Origin: Idiomarinaceae bacterium
GTDB taxonomy: Bacteria > Pseudomonadota > Gammaproteobacteria > Enterobacterales > Alteromonadaceae
Length of the DNA: 64,000 nucleotides
Direction: 5' to 3'
NCBI GenBank assembly: GCA_002685255.1
Contig: NYWU01000030.1
Location: 1-64,000, forward strand
The notes under the pieces are model-generated. The model worked only from the letters and a program-made list of their open reading frames with translations, was not told the DNA's origin and did no database searches. How positions within the stretch are numbered: position 1 is the first letter of the stretch; each line of letters opens with the position of its first letter. The translations under genes and the position numbers were made by a program. Below are positions 4,313-64,000 of the stretch, one piece after another.

Positions 4313-5236
4313 ATGCAAGAAGAAGCATCAAGTTTGTGGGCGGAGTTTAGCTCCGCCTTTACTACCCTATGGCAAACACCACTTTATACCTCCGGCGATA
4401 CAAAAATCCATTTTAGCCAAGTGGTCATTGCGCTGACCATTATCATCGTTGGTGTTATTGTTGTTCGCATTATAGGTCGCCAACTACTGAACCGTGCCCT
4501 GCTGCGCAACGGCGCGTCGGAAAACACCCTATTTACCTTTCGTCGGCTATTTCAGTTTATTGCCTACTTGTTACTGGTTTTACTTGCTCTACCGTTAGCT
4601 GGTATTCCGATTACGATATTTGCAGTACTCGGTGGCGCGTTCGCCATTGGTGTGGGTTTTGGTGCGCAGAATTTGCTCAATAACCTGATATCGGGTTTTA
4701 TTCTATTAACCGAGAGTCCAATTCGTATTGGCGACATCGTTGAGCTTGAGAACGAGCAAGGTCGCATTGAAGAAATAGGTAATCGTTGTGTACGTATTCG
4801 TCGGTTTGACGGGATTCATGTACTGGTGCCAAACAGCTACTTTTTAGAGCAACGCGTAGTGAACTGGACACTGGTTTCAAAAGATATCCGCAGCAATGTC
4901 AGTGTTGGTGTCGCTTATGGTTCACCGGCTGAAAAGGTACGTGACTTAATGCTGGAGGCGGCGAAAGAGCATAAAAAGATTAACACCGAGTACCCCATCG
5001 AAGTGTTATTTGAAGACTTTGGTGATAACAGCCTTACCTTCAATTTGCTGTTCTGGACTTCGGTTAGTGCGCCGATGGATTTACGTCGGGTGCAGTCGGA
5101 CTTGCGCTACAAGATCGACTCACTATTCGCCGAGAATGATATCGTCATCGCCTTCCCACAACGGGATGTGCACCTCGATACATTAAGACCACTCGAAGTC
5201 TCTATTCAACGAGCAAAAAAAAGCGATGCTAATTAG
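4313..5236 (+). CDS. MscS-family mechanosensitive ion channel
   Basis: The 307-residue protein has two or three N-terminal transmembrane segments (about 38-60, 80-100, 105-130). The pore-lining helix carries the glycine/alanine pattern FAVLGGAFAIGVGFGAQNLL followed by ISGFILL. The beta domain (GDIVELENEQGRIEEIGNR) and the cytoplasmic alpha/beta domain follow, as in small MscS channels. It would open under membrane tension and release solutes during hypo-osmotic shock. The stop codon falls within the loop of the terminator that follows. Confidence 0.9.
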   Translation: MQEEASSLWAEFSSAFTTLWQTPLYTSGDTKIHFSQVVIALTIIIVGVIVVRIIGRQLLNRALLRNGASENTLFTFRRLFQFIAYLLLVLLALPLAGIPITIFAVLGGAFAIGVGFGAQNLLNNLISGFILLTESPIRIGDIVELENEQGRIEEIGNRCVRIRRFDGIHVLVPNSYFLEQRVVNWTLVSKDIRSNVSVGVAYGSPAEKVRDLMLEAAKEHKKINTEYPIEVLFEDFGDNSLTFNLLFWTSVSAPMDLRRVQSDLRYKIDSLFAENDIVIAFPQRDVHLDTLRPLEVSIQRAKKSDAN

Positions 5237-5245
5237 CATCGCTTT
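5222..5245. terminator. Bidirectional terminator between mscS and the TonB receptor gene
   Basis: A perfect stem, AGCGATGCT with AGCATCGCT around an AATT loop, has A-runs on the left and T-runs on the right, so it can stop transcription from both sides. The mscS stop codon lies at the loop (5234-5236). The convergent receptor gene ends 21 bases beyond. Confidence 0.85.
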
Positions 5246-5265
5246 TATCAAAACTCTCCGCGTAT

Positions 5266-7932
5266 TTAGAATTCACGCTTATACGTTAGCGAGAAACTAA
5301 CACCACGCGTTTCTGAACGAAGCAAGGTATCGTCAAACTCAATCTCTTTATCTTGATTCAAGATATTTTGCACCTTGAGCGTGATCTGAGAATTGAAGTC
5401 TGGATAGTAACTATAAACCGCGTCTAAACTGTGGAAAGGTTGCTCAAACGCATCGCCACGACCTTCGATACCTGGAATGATAATACGCTCACCAAACACG
5501 TTATAAACCAACGATGCAGAGTGCTTACCATTGTCAGAATCAAAGCCAAGCTGACTGTTGACCACCCATTTTGAGTGACCCGTTAAGCGACGTTCGGTAT
5601 TGGTAATCGACGTCGATACACCGGTTTGTTCAACAATCTTCTGAGTATCCAACTGGATTTCAGAGTCACTTAACGTAACGTTACCCGAAACAAAGAAGTT
5701 CGTGCTGAGTGATTTTAACCACTCCATTTCGACACCGTATACTTCACCGGTCTCAGCGTTAGCAATACGTACTAATGGAGGACCGTCTTGCGCGGGCGAC
5801 TGAACAGATTCAATCGGGTCAGTCATGTCCTTATAGAACATACCCAACGACAAGGTATCGCCATTTTCTTGATACCACTCCCAACGTGCGTCATAGTTCT
5901 TGATCGACGTTGTCCGCAAGCCTGGTGTACCGCCGACTGGGAACAAGGTCAACGGATCGAGGTACGTTGAACTAGAGACTTCGCGCAAGTCAGGACGGAC
6001 TACCGTTTGTCCGTAGCTGAAACGTAACTGCTGCTCGTCAGTTAAAAAGTAAGTCAACGCCAACGATGGATAGAAGTCATCCTCTTGGAATGCTAAATCA
6101 GCTAGATCGTTAGGTGTCGGGTTGGTTGGTAAATCGATTTCACCGGTCGTTGGTACCAGTGGTACCACAACTTGGCGGAAGTCTTCCCAACGAACACCCG
6201 CCGTAATACGCCACTTCTCTTTAAAGAACACGTCGCCTTCAACGTAGTATGCGTCGATTGCTTGCGCAGAAATATAATCATCGCCCGCTACCGTAGTATC
6301 GTTCAATATCGGCGTAAAACTAAGTTCAGTATTCGCTAATAAGTCATCATTAAGGATTTCGCCTAGCTGATGCCCTTGCAAAACGCTCGAGTCGGGGAAC
6401 GCACGCGTATTGATATCAAAACGACGGTTGGTGGCAAAACGCGTTTTCTGAACAAAGTCCGCGCCCGCCTTTAAGGTGATATCCCAATCATCGAGCATGA
6501 TTGGTAGAGTTACATTGCCGCCCCAGTTTTCAACTTCATCATCGAGATCTTGAAAAGAGTAACGTGCAGCCGTCGTCGCATTGGTTAGGTTACTCTCAGT
6601 TTGACGGTCAAAAACTCCATCTTCGTTACGGTCCGTCAAAATAAACCGAGTCTCTAAGTTACCCGGTGCATAACGGCTTGAACGTGCCTTTGAATACTTC
6701 CAATCAATACCCAAGAAGTTCCAGTCGGTAAAGGTATGCATCCCTTTAATTTGGTTAGCCACCATCCGACGCTCTTGGTAATTCACATCAAACTCACGAA
6801 TACGCTGGTCAGAGCCGAAGTTGATGTTGTTATTGTTACCCAATTTCTCGCGTAAACGATCCTCGGTATCGTTCAGAATGACATGGCTGAAGTCGACTTT
6901 GTGATTCGCGCCGTAGTTAATGCCCAGCGTGAACATACCTGACCACGTCACTTGGTGCTCGGTTGACTGCACATCATCCCAACCACGAACCAATGTATAG
7001 CTGTCATCAGGGTTTAAGCGGTAGTTTTCACCCAGAAACTGCTCAGAAACCTGCCACTCATTGCGGTACGCAGCCGTGGTCAAAAAACCAATCGCCCACT
7101 TGTCAGTTAAATCATAACGGTTACCGTAGGTCACATTGACACCATAATCAGGGTCAATAGACTGCATTTGAGGGTCATAATCTCGGTTCAGTGCCAACGC
7201 CACATCCCGATTATCTTCGATGCTAATTTCATCAAGGAATGTGCGTTGTCCCCACAACGCTTGCAACATTTGTGGTGCTGCACGAGTTCCGTCATCTTTA
7301 CCCTTCCATGAACTCCCGCCATCATACCAATATGAGTCATCGAAATTTTCTGAGTTGCCGCCCACTTTAATCGAGCCATTAAAAACTTCTTGCGTGGGGG
7401 CAGACTTCAGGCGGATATCAACATTACCGCCACCAAAGTTAGCCGGCATTGATGCTGAATACGACTTTTGAACAGCTAAACTTTCGATAATATCCGAGGG
7501 GAATAAATCGAGTGGAATAACGGCTCGGGTTGGATCAGGGCTCGGTACGGACATGCCGTTAAGTTGCGTACTCGAGTAACGCTCACCTAAGCCACGTACA
7601 TATATAAATTTACCGTCGACCAGTGTAAGACCTGTAATACGACGAAGCGCAGCAGCGGCATCAGTATCACCGGTACGCGAAATCTGGTCAGCACCCATGA
7701 TATCGGCCACGAACGCCTGTTCTTTACGCTCTTGAACTACCGCTGCGGCACTGCCCTGTAAACGAGTACCTGTGGTAACCACTTCCTCGATGACTTGCTC
7801 AGGGTTGCTTGCCTGCTGCTCTGCTTCAGCTTCGGTTTGCTCGGCGTCTTGCCAAGCGAGTGCCGCAGGTGTTGCCAAGCAGGCAAGCACTGCGAGAGAA
7901 ATATTTGCCAGAGGGAATCGGTTGGCACGCAT
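5266..7932 (-). CDS. TonB-dependent outer-membrane receptor
   Basis: The 888-residue precursor has a signal peptide of about 26 residues ending near ALAWQ and a glutamate/glutamine-rich linker. The plug domain (about 70-185) contains GADQISRTGDTDAAAALRRI, the RGLGERYSS signature and NFGGGNVDIRLK. A long 22-strand-type barrel ends in aromatic LTYKREF. Such receptors import scarce nutrients with energy from TonB-ExbBD. The substrate is not evident; the RGLGERYSS plug type is common in Alteromonadales and differs from siderophore receptors. The gene lies 91 bases after the tandem lipoprotein gene on the same strand and probably shares its PhoB-type promoter. Confidence 0.9.
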   Translation of the reverse strand: MRANRFPLANISLAVLACLATPAALAWQDAEQTEAEAEQQASNPEQVIEEVVTTGTRLQGSAAAVVQERKEQAFVADIMGADQISRTGDTDAAAALRRITGLTLVDGKFIYVRGLGERYSSTQLNGMSVPSPDPTRAVIPLDLFPSDIIESLAVQKSYSASMPANFGGGNVDIRLKSAPTQEVFNGSIKVGGNSENFDDSYWYDGGSSWKGKDDGTRAAPQMLQALWGQRTFLDEISIEDNRDVALALNRDYDPQMQSIDPDYGVNVTYGNRYDLTDKWAIGFLTTAAYRNEWQVSEQFLGENYRLNPDDSYTLVRGWDDVQSTEHQVTWSGMFTLGINYGANHKVDFSHVILNDTEDRLREKLGNNNNINFGSDQRIREFDVNYQERRMVANQIKGMHTFTDWNFLGIDWKYSKARSSRYAPGNLETRFILTDRNEDGVFDRQTESNLTNATTAARYSFQDLDDEVENWGGNVTLPIMLDDWDITLKAGADFVQKTRFATNRRFDINTRAFPDSSVLQGHQLGEILNDDLLANTELSFTPILNDTTVAGDDYISAQAIDAYYVEGDVFFKEKWRITAGVRWEDFRQVVVPLVPTTGEIDLPTNPTPNDLADLAFQEDDFYPSLALTYFLTDEQQLRFSYGQTVVRPDLREVSSSTYLDPLTLFPVGGTPGLRTTSIKNYDARWEWYQENGDTLSLGMFYKDMTDPIESVQSPAQDGPPLVRIANAETGEVYGVEMEWLKSLSTNFFVSGNVTLSDSEIQLDTQKIVEQTGVSTSITNTERRLTGHSKWVVNSQLGFDSDNGKHSASLVYNVFGERIIIPGIEGRGDAFEQPFHSLDAVYSYYPDFNSQITLKVQNILNQDKEIEFDDTLLRSETRGVSFSLTYKREF

Positions 7933-7961
7933 GATATTAGCTACCTCTTGTTACTATGGAA

Positions 7962-7992
7962 GCCGGAGGTGTCCCTAAGGTCACCTCACGGC
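7962..7992 (-). other. Intercistronic stem-loop
   Basis: GCCGGAGGTG (7962-7971) pairs with CACCTCACGGC (7982-7992) with one bulged base and a 10-base loop. It sits in the 91-base gap between the lipoprotein and receptor genes. On the transcribed minus strand no T-run follows, so it is more likely an mRNA-stability or attenuating structure than a full terminator. Its effect is inference. Confidence 0.5.
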
Positions 7993-8023
7993 TTTTAAAG
8001 AGCACTTTATGCTACTTAAGGGG

Positions 8024-10780
8024 TTACTCTAATCCTACAGTCCAACCTGCAGTCCAATCGTTACCTTCTTCAACTGCTCCAACGAATGTCGCGTTGTCGA
8101 AGAATGTATCGCCGCTGAGGTCTGCTGCAGTTGCGTCTGTAATGCTGAAGACACCGTTCAAAGTATCGCCTGCTGCGGCAATGCTATTACCTGCTTGACC
8201 TGTGAACCAAGTTTCCAAATTGACGTCAGTTGCGCCAAATTTAAAGTTTTCACCGTTGTCACACGCCATGACTGAGTGAGTCATTGCAATGCCACCATCT
8301 TGTAAGTGCTGCTGGCTGACCGGGCTACTCTCAACTTCTAAACATTCGCCCATGCCCGCAGGACCTGAAACGATCGTGTTATAGAACGTTGCTTTAGTAC
8401 CTTCGCGCAAGTAGATACCCTCTGAAGAGTCCTCGCCTTGGAACGTGTTTCCAATGATGGTTAAGTTCGCAATGGTTGGGTTCGACATTGGCGTTACAGC
8501 CGGATTGCTACCATCGTTGTCAGCTTCGATACCACGGTTTGCATCTGAGTTGTCAGGGTTTTGGCGGACCAATACATATTGCATCTTGCCTTGGTACCCA
8601 TTGTCCCAATCGATACTGTCATCTTGCATGTTGGTTAAAACAACATACTTGAAGTTAACCGCACCGCCGAACATTTCGATGCCATCATCTGAGTTGTTAT
8701 GAACTTGGAGGTATTCCACCTTGGTTCCTGAGCCAACACCGCCGAACGTAATACCGTTAAGTTCGTTATCCGGTGCGATTTCAAAACCACCGTTCATGAC
8801 ACGTACATACTGCAAGGTACCTGAACTATCGGTCGCATCAGTACCACCGAATACAGCACCTTCTGCCGCGCCTTCAACTTGCAATGCACAGTCAGAACCA
8901 TCAGATGGGCATTTGTTACTCGGTGCGTTACCCAAGATAACTAAGCCGCCCCACTGACCCGGCTGACCTTCGCCAGTCTCAACGTAAGCTGCGGAAGTAA
9001 ACGTGATAGGCTGTTCAACCGTACCTTCCGCCATAATGTCTGAACCACGGCTGATCACTAAGTAATCGCCACCAGTACGTCCATAAACGGTTGTACCCGG
9101 CTCAATAGTCAACGTCATTGAGTTCGCATTGTCACCACCGATGAAAACCGGTCCGCTCAATGCATAAATATTGTCCGCGCTCAGTGTTAAATCGTCCGTG
9201 TAAGAGCCCGCTAGCTGACAAGTTGTGGTAGATCCATCTACTGGGGTAATCGCTTCGGTGCCTGCTGGACAACCTGCTACAGGCGCTTCTGAACCGCCCG
9301 CAGTGACTTCACCGCCGCCAAAACCAAATGCCCAGCCTTGACGCCAATCGCTGTCACCCGGAACCGCACCAACAAAATCAACTGACTCAAAGAAGCTACC
9401 ATCAACGGTGTTCGCAACGTCTTGACCTGCACCTAATAACGGAGAGTTTGCCATGGGCTGACCGTTAGCACCTAGCATGATTGAAGTGCTGACTTGGTTG
9501 TTCGATTGCTGATTTAGGAACCAATCTTCGAGGTTTACATCGCCTGAACCGTACTTAAAGTTCTCACCATTGCTGCAAGCCATGAAAGAGTTTTCCATGG
9601 TGATAGTGCCGTCACCTAGATTGGTCTGAGATTGTGGGCTACCTTCAACTTCAAAGCATTCACCCATTTCCGAAGGACCTGTCACCACAACATTGTAAAA
9701 CTGTGCACCGGTACCCTCGCGTAAATAAATACCTTCCGAAGAGTCTTCACCTTTGAAGTTATTACCGATAATGGTTAAGTTCGCGATAGTCGGGTTAGAC
9801 ATCGGCGTTGCCGCAGGGTTACTGCCATCATTGTCTGCTTCGATACCACGGTTAGCGTCGCCACCGTTCGGATCTTGCTCAACGTAAACGTATTGCATTT
9901 TACCACGATAGCCGTTGTCCCAATCGATGCTGTCATCTTGCATGCTGGTTAATACAACGTGCTTAAAGTTGACCGTACCACCGAACATTTCGATACCGTC
10001 GTCCGCGTTACCGTGCACTTGTAAGTAGTCAACCGTCGTGCCAGAACCTACGCCACCAAATGTGATACCGTTCAATTCATTGTCAGGCGCGATTTCGAAA
10101 CCTGCGTGTTTAACAACCACGTAGCGTAACGTGCCTGAGTTATCATCGTCTTGAGAGCCGCCAAACACTGCGCCCTCTTCAGCACCTTCAACTTGCAATG
10201 CGCAGTCGGAGCCATCTGCTGGGCATTTGTTGCTTGATGCATTACCTAAGATAACCAAGCCGCCCCATTGGCCAGCGCCTGTTTCTTCGCCCACCACATC
10301 TTGTGATGATGTAAAGATAATGGGCGCATCAGAGGTGCCGTCTGCCATGATTTTTGAGCCGCGGCTTACAACCAAGTAATCATTACCCTGACGACCAAAT
10401 ACCACAGTACCCGGCTCAATGGTCAATGTTGCTGAATTCGCGTTGTCACCACCGACAAAGGTAGGTCCGTCGATAGCATACATAACTGTTGTGCCATCAC
10501 TTTTGCTGTTCACTAAGGTTGTGTCAGCGGTAATGCGTCCTGAGATGACTTGAACTTGTACTTCTTCGCCGAGCGCTTCTGACGCTGCTAACGATAGTGA
10601 ACCACTGGCTGTACCTGGCAAGTCAGCGCCCGTATCACCGCCGTTGTTACCACCATTGTCACCACCATTATCTGGCTGCTGTACTTCAGCACCCGAATTG
10701 ATATTGATGTCGCCACCGCAACCAGCAAGCGCTAACGCTGCTGCGATCGCAGATGCTTTGAACAAAGAATTCAGATTCAT
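8024..10780 (-). CDS. Surface lipoprotein with two tandem beta-helix-like halves
   Basis: The 918-residue protein has a lipoprotein signal ending LALAGC (Cys21) and a Gly/Asn/Asp-rich linker (about 37-55). Two homologous units follow at about 101-487 and 539-917. Each contains the series GGDNANSxTLTIEPGT, QWGGLVILGN, NKCPxDGSDCALQVEG, APDNELNGITFGGVGSGT, DDGIEMFGG, QDDSIDWDNGY and SNPTIANLTIIGN. Each unit repeats cysteine pairs and Asp-rich turns, suggesting parallel beta-helix folds with bound cations. Proteins with these motifs are widespread but to my knowledge uncharacterised. It is the first gene of a unit with a TonB receptor and may capture ligand for it (inference). GGGAGA precedes the ATG. 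Confidence 0.8.
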   Translation of the reverse strand: MNLNSLFKASAIAAALALAGCGGDININSGAEVQQPDNGGDNGGNNGGDTGADLPGTASGSLSLAASEALGEEVQVQVISGRITADTTLVNSKSDGTTVMYAIDGPTFVGGDNANSATLTIEPGTVVFGRQGNDYLVVSRGSKIMADGTSDAPIIFTSSQDVVGEETGAGQWGGLVILGNASSNKCPADGSDCALQVEGAEEGAVFGGSQDDDNSGTLRYVVVKHAGFEIAPDNELNGITFGGVGSGTTVDYLQVHGNADDGIEMFGGTVNFKHVVLTSMQDDSIDWDNGYRGKMQYVYVEQDPNGGDANRGIEADNDGSNPAATPMSNPTIANLTIIGNNFKGEDSSEGIYLREGTGAQFYNVVVTGPSEMGECFEVEGSPQSQTNLGDGTITMENSFMACSNGENFKYGSGDVNLEDWFLNQQSNNQVSTSIMLGANGQPMANSPLLGAGQDVANTVDGSFFESVDFVGAVPGDSDWRQGWAFGFGGGEVTAGGSEAPVAGCPAGTEAITPVDGSTTTCQLAGSYTDDLTLSADNIYALSGPVFIGGDNANSMTLTIEPGTTVYGRTGGDYLVISRGSDIMAEGTVEQPITFTSAAYVETGEGQPGQWGGLVILGNAPSNKCPSDGSDCALQVEGAAEGAVFGGTDATDSSGTLQYVRVMNGGFEIAPDNELNGITFGGVGSGTKVEYLQVHNNSDDGIEMFGGAVNFKYVVLTNMQDDSIDWDNGYQGKMQYVLVRQNPDNSDANRGIEADNDGSNPAVTPMSNPTIANLTIIGNTFQGEDSSEGIYLREGTKATFYNTIVSGPAGMGECLEVESSPVSQQHLQDGGIAMTHSVMACDNGENFKFGATDVNLETWFTGQAGNSIAAAGDTLNGVFSITDATAADLSGDTFFDNATFVGAVEEGNDWTAGWTVGLE

Positions 10781-10828
10781 TGGGTTCTCCCGACTTGGAT
10801 GTTATCCATAGGTTAAAAGTCGAGGAGA

Positions 10829-10834
10829 ATGGTA
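10829..10834 (-). promoter_or_regulatory. -10 element of the PhoB-type promoter
   Basis: On the minus strand TACCAT lies ten bases after the PhoB box, matching TATAAT at four of six positions. PhoB-activated promoters typically have the box in place of a -35 element at this distance. It would give a leader of about 45 bases before the lipoprotein start codon. Confidence 0.5.
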
Positions 10835-10844
10835 GGGAGCTAGC

Positions 10845-10862
10845 GTGACAAATTTGTGACAA
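10845..10862 (-). promoter_or_regulatory. PhoB box upstream of the lipoprotein/TonB receptor unit
   Basis: The minus strand reads TTGTCAC-AAAT-TTGTCAC: two direct heptamers spaced by four A/T bases, an 11-base period. This is the architecture of the Pho box (consensus CTGTCAT-AAAT-CTGTCAT), with the TGTCA core intact in both units. A -10-like element follows at the usual distance. A weaker divergent half-match, CTGTCAT-CAAA-TCTTCAT, lies at 10870-10887 on the plus strand. The binding protein is inferred; phoB is not in the window. Confidence 0.65.
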
Positions 10863-10925: not shown

Positions 10926-10947
10926 ATGGGCTGCTTTTACAGCCCAT
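10926..10947 (-). terminator. Hairpin at the end of the arginine operon
   Basis: ATGGGCTG and CAGCCCAT form an 8-base-pair stem that spans the argH stop codon (10937-10939). Only a loosely T-rich stretch follows on the transcribed strand, so it is a weak terminator candidate. Confidence 0.4.
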
Positions 10948-12766
10948 ATTCCATCGCAATTTCATCGCAACAGTGTTTCTTAGGGCACAACTCACAGTCT
11001 TTCATTACCTTTTCTGGTAACTGTGCTTTATCGCACAGCGTAAAGCCTTGCTGCTTAAAAAAGTCAGGCACACGGGTCAACACAATCACGCGCTTTAATC
11101 GGATCTGACGCGCTTTCTGACACAAATGCTCAACCAACATACGACCTTGACCTCGCACCTGGCTTTGTGGATTGACTCCCAACGAACGTATCTCAGCTAA
11201 GCCCGTGGTATAGATATAGAGCGAAGCACACCCAGTGACTTTGCCATCGACTTCAGACACGGCAAATTCATTGATTGAGTGCACAATATCATCTTTGGCT
11301 CGTGGCAGGTTTTCGCCGGCACCCGCCCAATGACCGACCAAGCCGACAATCGCATCAATATCATCCAGCGTAGCATCACGAACCTTAATACGCAGACCTT
11401 GCTGAAGCTTCTTAAGCGCAGCTTGTGTCTGTTCAATGCTGGTGCCCCCGAGTGCATTTCGTTTTGCCAATAGCGCTTCAATGCTCAACCATTCATAAAC
11501 GTCAGGCATAATCACCGAATGCACTGCTTGCAAAGTACTGAGAGGCAAATCTTCGAGCGGTTGCTGGTGCTTAAGCGCTAACTGCACGCATTCCCCTACC
11601 ACTTCATGCGCGGTACGAAATGGAACGCCTTTGCTAACCAAATAATCAGCAAGCTCAGTCGCATTTGAATAGCCGCCCTTCGCTGCTTTTAGCGCCCTTG
11701 GCTGATTGACAGTGAGGCCGTTCACGCATTGCTGTGCAATATCGATAGAGGCTCCCCACTGGGTATAGCTGGCAAACAAGCCCTCTTTGTCTTCTTGCAT
11801 GTCTTTGTTGTACGCCAACGGGAGTGCTTTCAATGTCATCAACAGTCCCACTTGCGCGCCAACTACACGTCCCGACTTGCCGCGAATAAGTTCAAGCGCA
11901 TCGGGATTCTTTTTCTGGGGCATCAGTGACGAGCCGCTGCTCACATCATCGGCTAATTCAACAAACCCCGCTTCACCACTGGCATAAAAAATTAAATCTT
12001 CAGCCATGCGTGAAAGGTGAATCATCGACAGTGAAGCCACCGATAGCAGTTCGACAATAAAATCGCGATCGGATACGGCATCTAAACTGTTCGCCGCCGG
12101 CGCGCTAAACCCCAAACGAAGCGCTAAGTCCGTTCGATCGATCGGATAAGCCGTACCCGCTAGAGCGCCCGATCCGAGTGGACACACGTTGATACGCGCT
12201 AACGCATCTTTTAACCGTGCCTGATCACGCTTAAACATCTCAACATAGGCTAAGCACCAATGCGAAAATAGTACCGGTTGTGCGCGTTGCAAATGCGTAT
12301 ATCCAGGAATCACCGTTGTTGCCTCGCGCTCGGCCAAATTGGCCAGCGCTGCAATCAATTGTTCGAGTCGCTGCCACTGGGTCTCTACCTGCGCTCGGCA
12401 CCACAGTCGAATATCGGTGGCGACTTGGTCATTACGGCTACGACCTGTATGCAGTTTTTTACCCAGATCGCCAATGCGTTCGATCAGCTGACGTTCAATA
12501 AAGGCGTGAATGTCCTCATCACCCGCCACCGCGACATCACCTAAGCACCCACTCCAGTGTTGTAAAATGTCATGCAATGCATGCTGTATATGGCTGTACT
12601 CATCGGTCGTTAAAACGCCCACCTGTTGCAGCGATTGCGCCCAAGCAATACTGCCCCGAATATCAAACTCAAGCAGTACACAGTCAAATGGCAGAGAGTC
12701 ATTAAACTGCTGAAAAGCTTGGCTGGGAGGCGCACTAAACCGGCCTCCCCAAAGTCCGTTGGTCAT
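10937..12766 (-). CDS. argH: Argininosuccinate lyase fused to N-acetylglutamate synthase domain, ArgH(A)
   Basis: Residues 1 to about 460 form an argininosuccinate lyase (start [10 protein letters not shown]; signature [19 protein letters not shown]). Residues about 462-609 form a GNAT acetyltransferase with the acetyl-CoA loop [10 protein letters not shown] and a Cys-rich end, [10 protein letters not shown]. The lyase makes arginine and fumarate; the GNAT part makes N-acetylglutamate, the first step of the pathway, and a separate argA is not seen here. Such fusions are known from marine gammaproteobacteria. The ATG at 12766 is preferred over the GTG at 12772 because GGGGG lies six bases before it and overlaps the GTG. 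The gene closes the argCBFGH operon. Confidence 0.93.
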
Positions 12767-12775
12767 GTTCACCCC

Positions 12776-60144: not shown

Positions 60145-61374
60145 ATGACCGTTACATCACTCGCAAAAGATAAGATTAAAGTACTACTACTCGAAGGTGT
60201 CCATGACAGCGCCATCGAGTTACTTAAGCAACAAGGCTATGATCAGCTCGAGATTCTCAAAGGCTCACTCGATGAAGATGAACTGTGCGAGAAAATCAAA
60301 GACGTACACATGATTGGTATCCGCTCGCGCACGCAGTTAACTGAGAAAGTGTTCGCTGCGGCAGAGAAGCTTATCGCGGTTGGATGCTTTTGTATTGGTA
60401 CTAATCAAGTCGACTTAAAAGCCGCACAAAAGCACGGCGTAGTCGTATTCAATGCACCGTTTTCAAATACACGCAGCGTCGCTGAATTGGTGCTAGCCGA
60501 AACCATTATGTTGTTGCGTGGAATTCCGCAAAAAAACGCACAAGCGCATAAGGGAGGCTGGCTGAAGTCGGCCAACCATGCGTACGAGGTGCGCGGAAAA
60601 GTGCTTGGTATCGTCGGTTATGGTCATATCGGTAGTCAATTGAGCGTATTGGCTGAGCAGCTCGGCATGCAGGTTATCTATTACGATGTCGAGACCAAAC
60701 TGCCTATGGGTAACGCGCGCTCTATCAAACGCCTGGATGATCTACTCGCAAAAGCCGATGTGGTGACTTTGCACGTGCCAGAAACACCCTCAACTCGCTG
60801 GATGATAGGTTCTGCCCAACTGGCTAAAATGAAGCCAAATAGTTTGCTGATTAATGCTTCTCGTGGCACCGTCGTTGACATCGAAGCGCTTGCTGAAGCA
60901 TTAACTAGCGGTCATTTAGCCGGAGCCGCAATCGACGTATTCCCAGTCGAACCGCAGAGCAACCAAGACACCTTTGAATCACCGTTATGTGGTATCGAAA
61001 ACTGCTTACTAACGCCGCATATTGGTGGCTCGACTGTTGAGGCACAAGAAAATATTGGTATCGAAGTCGCCGGTAAGCTGGTGCATTACTCTGATAACGG
61101 TTCAACGCTGTCGGCGGTGAATTTTCCGGAGGTCTCATTACCACAGCACGCAACCGCTCGTCGTTTATTGCATATCCATAAAAACCAACCCGGTATGATG
61201 AATGCGATTAACGGTATCTTAAGTGATTTTGAGATTAACGTCGCAGGCCAATATCTACAGACAGATGAAAACGTCGGTTATGTGGTGATGGATATCGATA
61301 CCGACAATGGCACCGAACTGCTCGAAAAAATGAAAGCGATTCCGGGCACGATCCGTGCCCGGCAATTGTTCTAA
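60145..61374 (+). CDS. serA: D-3-phosphoglycerate dehydrogenase
   Basis: The 409-residue E. coli-type enzyme makes the first step to serine. It shows the NAD site [20 protein letters not shown] (about 154-173), [32 protein letters not shown] with the catalytic histidine, and a C-terminal ACT domain (about 335-409), which gives serine inhibition. It follows rpiA with no gap. Its end overlaps phoU by four bases on the opposite strand. Confidence 0.96.
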
Positions 61375-62093
61375 GGGGCCTTGTCACCTTTGACTGTGCG
61401 CTCGATGCTCTCGGGAGAGACATGGCGCACATCTTTTCCTTTAACAAAAAAGATGATGTATTCGGCAATATTCTGGCAACGATCGCCCATGCGCTCCAGT
61501 GAACGCGCGGACCACAATACGTTCATAATTTTAGGAATTGAGCGCGAATCTTCCATCATGTAAGTCATCAACTGACGTGTCAGTGCCTCATACTGACGGT
61601 CCGCCTGCTCATCTTGGCGGTGTACTTCATAGGCAGCATCAAGATCCATGCGGGCAAACGCGTCGAGTACCTTACGTAACATTGTCAAAATTTGATGACC
61701 TAAATTCTCTAAGCTGACCAGTAACTGCTGTTGATCATTACTGAAGCTCTCCTTCGCCACTTTAGCAATGCGCTCAGCTTCATCACCAATACGTTCTAAA
61801 TCAGCAATCGTCTTGATAATGGCAATAACTAACCGCAAGTCACTGGCGGCGGGCTGTCGTTTGGCAATAATGTGCACGCATTCTTCGTCAATTTGGACTT
61901 CGAGTTTATTGACCTTGTGGTCATTACTCAGCACTTTTTCAGCTAACTCAACATCAGCGGTTTGAATCGCGGTAATGGCATCGCTTAATTGTTGCTCAAC
62001 TAAACCACCCATACTCAATACGCGGTTACGCACGGCTTCCAACTCCTCGTTAAACTTGTTGGAAATGTGCTTACCCATGTTTAATTTATCCAT
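61371..62093 (-). CDS. phoU: Phosphate signalling protein PhoU
   Basis: The 240-residue protein consists of two three-helix bundles, each with the metal-binding E/D-x-x-x-D motif. [12 protein letters not shown] occurs in the first repeat and [14 protein letters not shown] in the second. PhoU links the Pst transporter to the PhoR/PhoB system and keeps the regulon off when phosphate is plentiful. It is the last gene of the pst operon, 11 bases after pstB. Its 3' end overlaps serA by four bases. Confidence 0.95.
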
Positions 62094-62104
62094 GCCTGTA
62101 CTCC

Positions 62105-62923
62105 TTAACCGTACCGTCCAGTGATGTAATCTTCCGTACGTTTTTCCATGGGCGTGGTAAACAACGTGTCGGTGTTGGCATATTCAATGAGCTGACCCAT
62201 ATACAAGAATGCGGTCTGATCAGACACACGTGCCGCCTGTTGCATGTTGTGCGTGACAATCACGACGGTATATTTTTGCTTTAAATCGGTGATGAGCTCT
62301 TCAATCGTCAATGTCGAAATCGGGTCCAACGCTGAGGTCGGCTCATCTAACAGTAAAATTTCCGGCTCAATCGCGATCGACCGAGCAATGACCAAGCGCT
62401 GCTGCTGACCACCCGATAAGCTAAAGGCACTCGCATTCAGTCGATCTTTTACCTCATCCCACAGTGCCGCGCCTCTCAGCGAGCGCTCAACAGCCTCGTC
62501 CAACACACGGCGATCTTTAACGCCTTGCAAACGCAAACCATAGACCACGTTCTCATACACCGATTTTGGAAAAGGATTTGGGCGCTGGAAAACCATACCA
62601 ATACGGCGTCGTAACGCGGCAACATCCACGCCCTTGTCATAGATGTTTTTACCGTGCAGTAAAATATCGCCTTTAACTTTGCAGCTCTCAACCAGATCGT
62701 TCATGCGGTTTATGCAGCGCAGTAATGTCGATTTACCACAGCCAGATGGACCAATGAATGCAGTGACACCGTGTTTAGGGACACTCATCGAGATGTCGTG
62801 CAACGCACGATCTTCTCCATAGTATAGACTCAAATTCTTAATTTCGAGTGCGCGCTGTTCGTCTGTTAAATTCGCCAGATCCAATTTTTCGCTGGCGCTA
62901 TTTGGACTAACCGAAATCATCAA
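62105..62923 (-). CDS. pstB: Phosphate ABC transporter ATPase PstB
   Basis: The 272-residue ATPase shows Walker [21 protein letters not shown] (about 57-76), Q-loop [20 protein letters not shown], signature [15 protein letters not shown] and Walker [16 protein letters not shown] after Walker A and PNPFP are specific for PstB. It powers high-affinity phosphate import with PstA and PstC. It lies 24 bases after pstA. Confidence 0.97.
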
Positions 62924-62947
62924 TGCTGCCCTTCTATTGGTAAGTGA

Positions 62948-64000
62948 TTATTGCTCAAGTGCACGATATTTCTCGCGTAAGTGATTACGCACACCGATAG
63001 CCGTAAGGTTGAGCCCTACTATCACAGTAATCAGTAAAAACGATGTGGCATAAACCAATGGCCGCGAAGCCTCTACGTTTGGACTCTGAAAGCCGACATC
63101 ATAAATATGGAATCCTAAATGCATAAACTTGCGATCAAGGTGGAAGTAAGGAAAGTTACCATCAACCGGAAGCATTGGTGCAGATTTAACCACGCCCACC
63201 AACATCAACGGCGCCACTTCGCCTGCCGCCCGTGCCACAGCAAGAATAAGGCCGGTCATTATTGCCGGAGACGCCATTGGCACGATAATTCGCCAGATGG
63301 TTTCCCACTTGGTGGCGCCTAGCGCAAGCGAACCTTCACGCAAGGTACTTGGAATACGGGCAAGCCCTTCCTCCGTTGATACAATCACCACTGGCAAGGT
63401 TAAGATCGCTAAGGTAATCGCAGACCACAGCACGCCTGGTGTACCAAAAGTTGGATTCGGTAATGCCTCAGGATAAAACACCTGGTCAATGCTTCCCCCC
63501 ACCATATAGACGAAAAAGCCGAGACCAAATACCCCATAAACGATTGAAGGCACGCCGGCGAGGTTAATCACGGCAATCCGAATCAGCTTGGTCACCGGAT
63601 TTTTGCCTGCGTACTCGTGTAAGTAAATCGCCGCAACCACACCAAAAGGTGTGACAATGACCGACATCAACAACACCATGAAAACCGTGCCAAAGATGGC
63701 TGGAAAAACACCGCCTTCAGTATTCGCCTCGCGGGGTGGTTCAGAGACAAACTTGCCAATCTGTTGGAAGAAGTGGCCGATCTTTGCAAGTAAATGCATA
63801 TCGTTCGGGAAGTTAACATCCAACACACGGTACAACGGGATAGCGACCTCTTCTCCTCGAAAGTCCTCGACAATAAGCGTATCGCGCGAGGCTTTATCGC
63901 GTATCGCAAACAGCTGCTTTTCTAGCTGTTGATAATCGGCTTGTAGCCGTTCTCGCTCCGCATCAAGTTCTGCCAGCGCCTGTTCAGTTAATTGACCTTC
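62948..64000 (-). CDS. pstA: Phosphate ABC transporter permease PstA (5' end outside window)
   Basis: At least 350 C-terminal codons are present, and the frame remains open to the window edge, so the start lies beyond 64000. The membrane part has five or six helices with the permease loop REGSLALGATKWETIWRIIVP and SAPMLPVDGNFPYFHL. The upstream segment is hydrophilic and partly coiled (EQALAELDAERERLQADYQQ, then DTLIVEDFRGEEVAIPLYRV). This matches the long periplasmic insertion of the ~550-residue PstA of many marine gammaproteobacteria. PstC and PstS are not visible. Confidence 0.93.
   Translation of the reverse strand, partial: EGQLTEQALAELDAERERLQADYQQLEKQLFAIRDKASRDTLIVEDFRGEEVAIPLYRVLDVNFPNDMHLLAKIGHFFQQIGKFVSEPPREANTEGGVFPAIFGTVFMVLLMSVIVTPFGVVAAIYLHEYAGKNPVTKLIRIAVINLAGVPSIVYGVFGLGFFVYMVGGSIDQVFYPEALPNPTFGTPGVLWSAITLAILTLPVVIVSTEEGLARIPSTLREGSLALGATKWETIWRIIVPMASPAIMTGLILAVARAAGEVAPLMLVGVVKSAPMLPVDGNFPYFHLDRKFMHLGFHIYDVGFQSPNVEASRPLVYATSFLLITVIVGLNLTAIGVRNHLREKYRALEQ

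Follow-up and report, generated by a model that had tools for sequence, protein, structure and literature searches.

A lipoprotein and TonB-dependent receptor pair of the ElpS/CC0171 type behind a PhoB box in an Idiomarinaceae bacterium, and its association with a TtpB/TtpC-type TonB system

Caulobacter crescentus produces ElpS (CC0170) when starved of phosphate and secretes it through the type II secretion system (T2SS), and the gene of a TonB-dependent receptor (TBDR), CC0171, adjoins that of ElpS; homologs were noted in Shewanella and Bacteroides, a tandem with T2SS genes was noted in Xanthomonas, Sphingomonas and Hyphomonas, and overproduction of ElpS was accompanied by higher secreted alkaline phosphatase activity (PMC2996285). 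In Flavobacterium johnsoniae, the phosphate-inducible lipoproteins FI, FII and FIII are encoded beside TonB-dependent transporters and are 31-36% identical to ElpS, FII carrying IPR011050 (pectin-lyase fold) and lying within the phoBR operon (PMC8115612). The PusCD complex is likewise induced by phosphate depletion (PMC8115612). The TonB2 system of Vibrio vulnificus, TtpB-TtpC-ExbB-ExbD-TonB-TtpD, whose first gene encodes the DUF3450 protein TtpB2, serves siderophore-iron uptake (PMC6957404). We analysed a lipoprotein and TBDR gene pair in a stretch of 64,000 nucleotides of an Idiomarinaceae bacterium (contig NYWU01000030.1 of assembly GCA_002685255.1, positions 1 to 64,000), hereafter the window. 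It is probable, in our judgement, that the pair belongs to the Pho regulon as an outer-membrane module of the ElpS/CC0171 type, in which the lipoprotein would bind a phosphorus ligand and the TBDR would import it by means of a co-regulated TonB system.

Both genes lie on the reverse strand. The lipoprotein open reading frame (ORF), at 8024-10780 (918 amino acids, lipobox LALAGC), comes first and is followed after a gap of 91 bp by the TBDR ORF at 5266-7932 (888 amino acids); the halves of the lipoprotein are two units, 65% identical over 408 amino acids, so that the same-strand, double-unit arrangement described by the original prediction, which had been made from the sequence alone, is borne out. 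The same is true of the PhoB box, TTGTCACAAATTTGTCAC at 10845-10862, and of the -10 element TACCAT at 10829-10834, 10 nt past the box on the same reverse strand. PhoB-activated promoters usually have their -10 element some 10 bp past the box. Among 148 genomes sampled in the order, 24 have the lipoprotein, and the TBDR gene directly adjoins it downstream in the window and in all 23 others; in a set of 79 named loci, one of which was left out of processing in some counts, a TBDR stands directly beside the lipoprotein in 64 of the 78 processed. A stem-loop is predicted at the junction of the two genes (7933-8023, reverse strand; minimum free energy -29.4, z -3.9 from mononucleotide shuffles, which flatter structure). 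With z below -2 in 19 of the 24 genomes, its position is kept while the sequences differ, and it would fit a higher production of lipoprotein than of receptor. An inverted repeat with flanking A/T runs at 5220-5246 is likely a bidirectional terminator ending the operon, and we infer that the two genes are co-transcribed.

When the 64 kb were scanned with a matrix of Escherichia coli Pho boxes, the box was the top Pho site of the window at 18.9; the second, on the other strand and 25 bp from the box, scored 15.5 and the third 14.4. The matrix was then refined on the regions upstream of pstS and phoB in the 24 genomes (43 of 48 contributing), and the highest-scoring site within 300 bp, whichever its strand, was compared with 200 dinucleotide shuffles. 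The window box scores 18.8 bits with the refined matrix, while shuffled sequences average 1.4 (p 0.005, the lowest value that 200 shuffles allow). A significant site precedes the lipoprotein gene in 24/24 genomes at p<=0.05 and in 13/24 at p<=0.01, as against just one of 24 TBDR upstreams; for the TonB-system component TtpB (DUF3450), a site was found before 9/9 Pho-type genes and 3/21 paralogs. The layout is not uniform, since a strong site lies 58-69 bp from the start codon in six genomes and is weaker, farther or reversed in the remaining ones. Several values are borderline, including those of G040, G098, G044 and G147, and in G052, where the lipoprotein gene and phoB diverge from one common region, matrix refinement and test overlap. 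The pstS upstreams themselves score below 4 in five of the 24 genomes (lowest -5.0), low-scoring pstS lying shortly after phoB on the same strand in G031, G090, G106 and G121, not in G006. Among the other upstreams of the same regions, 26 of 133 reach 7.8 or more, and many of these belong by their position to phoB, pstS, TtpB or shared divergent regions (partly labelled).

In the named loci, scored without shuffles, the lipoprotein box reaches 12 or more in 38 of 78, namely 1/7 in Shewanella, 1/7 in Bacteroidota, 6/16 in Alphaproteobacteria and 30/48 in the rest. Where the box scores 17 or more, TANNNT is placed exactly at +10 in all six lipoprotein promoters of the 24-genome set, in 14 of 20 lipoprotein promoters of named loci and in five of six TtpB promoters; at any other offset between 4 and 19 it occurs just twice in all across these lipoprotein and TtpB sets. 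From these comparisons, PhoB control of the lipoprotein promoter, as originally predicted, is strongly supported by sequence, the box being conserved before the orthologous pairs of all 24 genomes and weak in Shewanella and Bacteroidota.

The phosphate genes mentioned in the original prediction are present in the window, with phoU, pstB and part of pstA at 61371-63835 on the reverse strand. Just beyond it on the same contig lie pstC and phoR, pstS (66968-67951, Pho box at 68019) and phoB (69376-70062, Pho box at 70114), and beside pst-phoBR there is a TonB block at 72237-77236 consisting of TtpB, TtpC, ExbB, ExbD, TonB and a tetratricopeptide repeat (TPR) gene, with overlapping Pho half-sites before the TtpB operon at ~77310-77350 (G000:C25; L059 17310-17350). 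By profile the block comprises DUF3450, two MotA/ExbB proteins (one large), ExbD, TonB_C and the TPR gene; that the last is TtpD is a guess. The layout in the window genome is split: 50-60 kb separate the pair from pst-phoBR, and the TonB block next to phoBR is about 60 kb away from it. Certain relatives have the pair beside phoB, phoR and pstS, which also speaks for PhoB control. Within regions of limited length, some of them ended by contig ends, phoB was present in 5/23 around orthologs in the order and in 14/79 named loci, and Pho-type TtpB in 6/23 and 15/79, respectively; the full order phoB-phoR-pstS-lipoprotein-TBDR-TtpB-TtpC-ExbB-ExbD occurs in two of the 23 regions (G090, G106) and in seven of the 79 named loci, for example in Alteromonas marina (L147).

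All nine genomes with Pho-type TtpB in the order sample (n=148) are among the 24 with the lipoprotein. Since that test is confounded by family, it was redone within the family on 395 genomes, with E-value limits of 1e-20 for the lipoprotein and 1e-68 for TtpB. The lipoprotein was matched in 318 and Pho-type TtpB in 265 genomes, 263 having both, two TtpB alone, 55 the lipoprotein alone and 75 neither; in the genus of the window (19 genomes), seven match the lipoprotein at E 0, 11 at E 1e-49 to 1e-57 and one not at all. Co-occurrence of the TtpB-type TonB system with the lipoprotein is thereby supported at the sequence level.

How, then, does the locus compare with the described systems? It is like ElpS/CC0171 in that a lipoprotein gene adjoins a TBDR gene, in the link to phosphate starvation (in the window, through the box only) and in the order lipoprotein-TBDR-gsp seen in relatives of the window proteins, and it differs in that ElpS, at ~50 kDa, corresponds to one unit whereas the window protein has two in 918 amino acids, and in that the window pair is not beside T2SS genes (PMC2996285). 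Single-unit relatives do exist, so the two-unit form is a variant and no bar to the ElpS type. By analogy, the pair is of the ElpS/CC0171 type, the connection being made through synteny, unit size and the statements of the papers. With FI-FIII, which are phosphate-inducible, it shares a lipoprotein gene beside that of a TonB receptor; there, however, two of the lipoproteins lie downstream of the transporters, the transporters list pf13715, and the cited portion of the paper has no TtpB/TtpC block (PMC8115612). The block beyond the window runs in the manner of TonB2, with DUF3450, large MotA/ExbB, ExbB, ExbD, TonB and the TPR gene, but has Pho boxes and adjoins pst-phoBR (PMC6957404). A surface lipoprotein plus TBDR is also the make-up of SusCD and PusCD (PMC8115612). 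A SusD-like lipoprotein was rejected because Pfam finds neither of the SusD domains, PF07980 and PF14322, in the window protein. Taken together, the ElpS/CC0171 and FI/FII loci are phosphate-starvation loci alike (PMC2996285, PMC8115612), and a system without precedent is rejected on their account: of the overall interpretation first given, PhoB control is supported by sequence, the novelty of the pair is not supported. Among the matches listed in a search of open-licence PMC literature, we recognised no description of a Pho-linked TtpB/TtpC system; as far as these matches show, the kind of pair is known and its coupling to a Pho-boxed TonB block is new.

The lipobox cysteine is invariant in 24/24 genomes, with start codons picked by a script favouring a lipobox. 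On the lipoprotein, Pfam gives Beta_helix alone, at 25.4 bits against a cut-off of 25.9 (0.5 bit short), and no Pfam or NCBIfam enzyme family is above cut-off. NCBIfam gave sub-threshold matches only and PHROGs none; a sequence search of the PDB brought up matches at chance level for the lipoprotein but nothing for the TBDR. An AlphaFold2 model from 24 sequences has two strand-rich halves (mean confidence, pLDDT, 84; predicted template modelling score, pTM, 0.54), the mutual placement of which is uncertain given the pTM. Foldseek places PL6 alginate lyases at the head of its PDB matches (best E 3e-5, 8-10% identity), although these are weak, with TM-scores by query of 0.12-0.19. PL6 alginate lyases are beta-helix enzymes, and the beta-helix-like model suggests that the lipoprotein has a right-handed beta-helix (pectin-lyase) fold. 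An acidic ladder (D260 D261 E264, D282 D283 D286, E314 D316) is kept in the first unit of 24/24 aligned sequences, and its equivalents are kept in all 22 second units of the same alignment. The closest named relatives are Idiomarina proteins, with 92% identity to that of I. fontislapidosi, which makes it very probable that the window comes from Idiomarina. The lipoprotein has a single unit in two of the 24 genomes, and motif counts in 78 named loci give one unit in five, two in 60, three in 12 and four in one. Three-unit lipoproteins of ~1360 amino acids were seen in Alteromonas abrolhosensis, A. hispanica, two Pseudoalteromonas and Aliikangiella (L157, L158, L160, L162, L211). In the part of the unit tree that was inspected, branch support not being considered, units cluster by lineage, which suggests either several duplications, hence repeated expansion, or concerted evolution.

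The TBDR carries TonB_dep_Rec_b-barrel (PF00593) and Plug (PF07715) domains and scores 211 bits against TIGR01782, under the cut-off of 310. Pfam detects no carboxypeptidase-regulatory domain in it, which distinguishes it from SusCD-type receptors as the lack of a SusD domain does for the lipoprotein; we take pf13715 to be the carboxypeptidase-regulatory-like domain. The model resembles PhuR and other TBDRs, the nearest solved structures being iron and haem receptors.

In the window the pair has no T2SS genes as neighbours; the system is located elsewhere in the genome (gspC, gspD). In Alphaproteobacteria and SAR86 relatives, lipoprotein and TBDR are often followed by gspD-gspE. Genes for GspD and GspE occur near the lipoprotein in 13 of the 79 named loci (one a Halothiobacillus metagenome-assembled genome, MAG) and in nine of another 19 regions; in 11 and eight of these, respectively, they lie downstream in the same orientation. 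In one of the 23 regions of the order, gspF and gspG are near the lipoprotein. A T2SS neighbourhood therefore marks some relatives and not all, and we did not treat it as defining the ElpS-type pair. The PhoB regulon of Caulobacter includes the T2SS and various TonB receptors (PMC11208175). In the window genome, a Pho-like site (19.0; G000:C3, L249 7785-7802) is present ~190 bp upstream of gspC in the T2SS operon, where it overlaps the start of a divergent S4-domain gene.

In the mechanism we favour, phosphate limitation would lead PhoB to bind the box, and the lipoprotein would be transcribed, followed by the TBDR through the stem-loop junction. The beta-helix lipoprotein would probably be carried to the cell surface by the T2SS, given that ElpS is T2SS-secreted and that the genome has gspC and gspD. 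There it may bind a phosphorus-bearing polymer or a metal-phosphate ligand along the conserved acidic ladder and present it to the TBDR, which would import it, powered by the TtpB/TtpC/ExbB/ExbD/TonB system. Gene order, box, promoter layout, family and co-occurrence with the TonB system speak for such a module, and it is from this co-occurrence and neighbourhood that we infer the substrate, its handover and the energising of this particular TBDR.

Besides the indirect link to ElpS, several observations weigh against this reading. The Caulobacter experiments tied ElpS to extracellular alkaline phosphatase activity only and not to uptake, measurements of intracellular phosphate revealed no significant change, deletion of cc0171 left ElpS production running, and cc0171 was expressed whether the medium was rich or poor, whereas in the window one box precedes both genes (all in the cited part of PMC2996285). 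No gsp gene was found at the Hyphomonas atlantica locus (L187) or at the Caulobacterales MAG loci L176 and L177. The site upstream of gspC is significant (p<=0.05, mononucleotide shuffles) in only 9/24 genomes, and general PhoB control of the T2SS is for that reason not claimed. The strict TANNNT at +10 occurs in only 10 of 40 pstS/phoB promoters, many of the others having a different hexamer there, such as AATAAT. Finally, the Fisher p of 3e-42 for co-occurrence in the family ignores relatedness, 55 of the 318 lipoprotein genomes are without Pho-type TtpB, and some of the 318 match only weakly (E 1e-20 to 1e-60), their neighbours and promoters having been inspected in a minority of cases.

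The main rival, which we consider unlikely but worth keeping in view, casts the lipoprotein as an enzyme or the helper of one, either a surface beta-helix hydrolase or an activator of secreted phosphatase, freeing phosphate or clearing phosphate-bearing glycans, with the TBDR taking up the product or an unrelated ligand needed at the same time. The phosphatase activity that rose with ElpS overproduction would fit this (PMC2996285), as would the modelled similarity of FI and FII to polygalacturonase (PMC8115612). It could also be that the invariant acidic residues of both units are catalytic, and the best structural matches of the lipoprotein are polysaccharide lyases. Those matches are weak, however, no enzyme family is recognised above cut-off, and acidic ladders can equally serve as calcium or ligand sites.

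Another possibility is that the Pho-controlled pair imports a cargo other than phosphorus that is needed in phosphate stress, a metal or a phosphorus-free compound. The likeness of the TBDR model to iron and haem receptors and the CorA-like magnesium transporter encoded next downstream in G052 point in this direction, as does siderophore uptake by the Vibrio TonB2 system with its TtpB (PMC6957404); the fold matches are nevertheless generic (9-14% identity among the 50 matches listed) and some relatives have the pair embedded in phoBR-pstS clusters, which makes this quite improbable. As for the box being a chance match and the pair lying outside PhoB control, a degenerate Pho pattern with at most one mismatch is just modestly enriched in the genome (17 sites against 12 for the reversed control), and for that reason the pattern alone is weak evidence. 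Its three perfect matches are the window box, the pstS box and a site before a DUF47 gene. Conservation before all 24 lipoprotein genes as against one TBDR gene, the fixed -10 spacing behind strong boxes and the phoB/phoR/pstS context in relatives leave chance very little room, and this explanation was rejected.

Some further features of the contig and genome may be recorded. At 10937-12772 of the window, an ORF for argininosuccinate lyase ends in a GNAT acetyltransferase domain at the C-terminus, and a porin is encoded at 71159-72100 beyond the window. The perfect Pho-pattern match before the DUF47 (PhoU_div) gene scores 22.7 (G000:C13:994-1011, L269). Two Pho-like sites (L272, L273) lie between divergent genes at G000:C3:68096-68331, one for an outer-membrane protein with CarboxypepD_reg plus barrel and one for an Exo_endo_phos enzyme, which are likely another Pho-controlled unit judging from these sites, and a Pho-like site (17.0) is present upstream of the polyphosphate kinase gene (G000:C8:121397, L276).

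More broadly, and tentatively, we propose that marine Alteromonadaceae and their kin may have a complete phosphorus importer of the outer membrane, controlled by PhoB, energised by TonB and made up of phoBR, PstS, a lipoprotein of one to three units, the TBDR and a dedicated TtpB/TtpC complex, which would be SusCD-like with unrelated surface parts and in which the number of units would set the reach for the ligand. The role of ElpS was left open in the 2010 paper, going by its cited portion (PMC2996285). By linking the pair with PhoB and with a single TonB system, the present locus would make the passage of organic and polymeric phosphorus across the outer membrane, in our judgement a largely open matter, testable in culturable marine bacteria.

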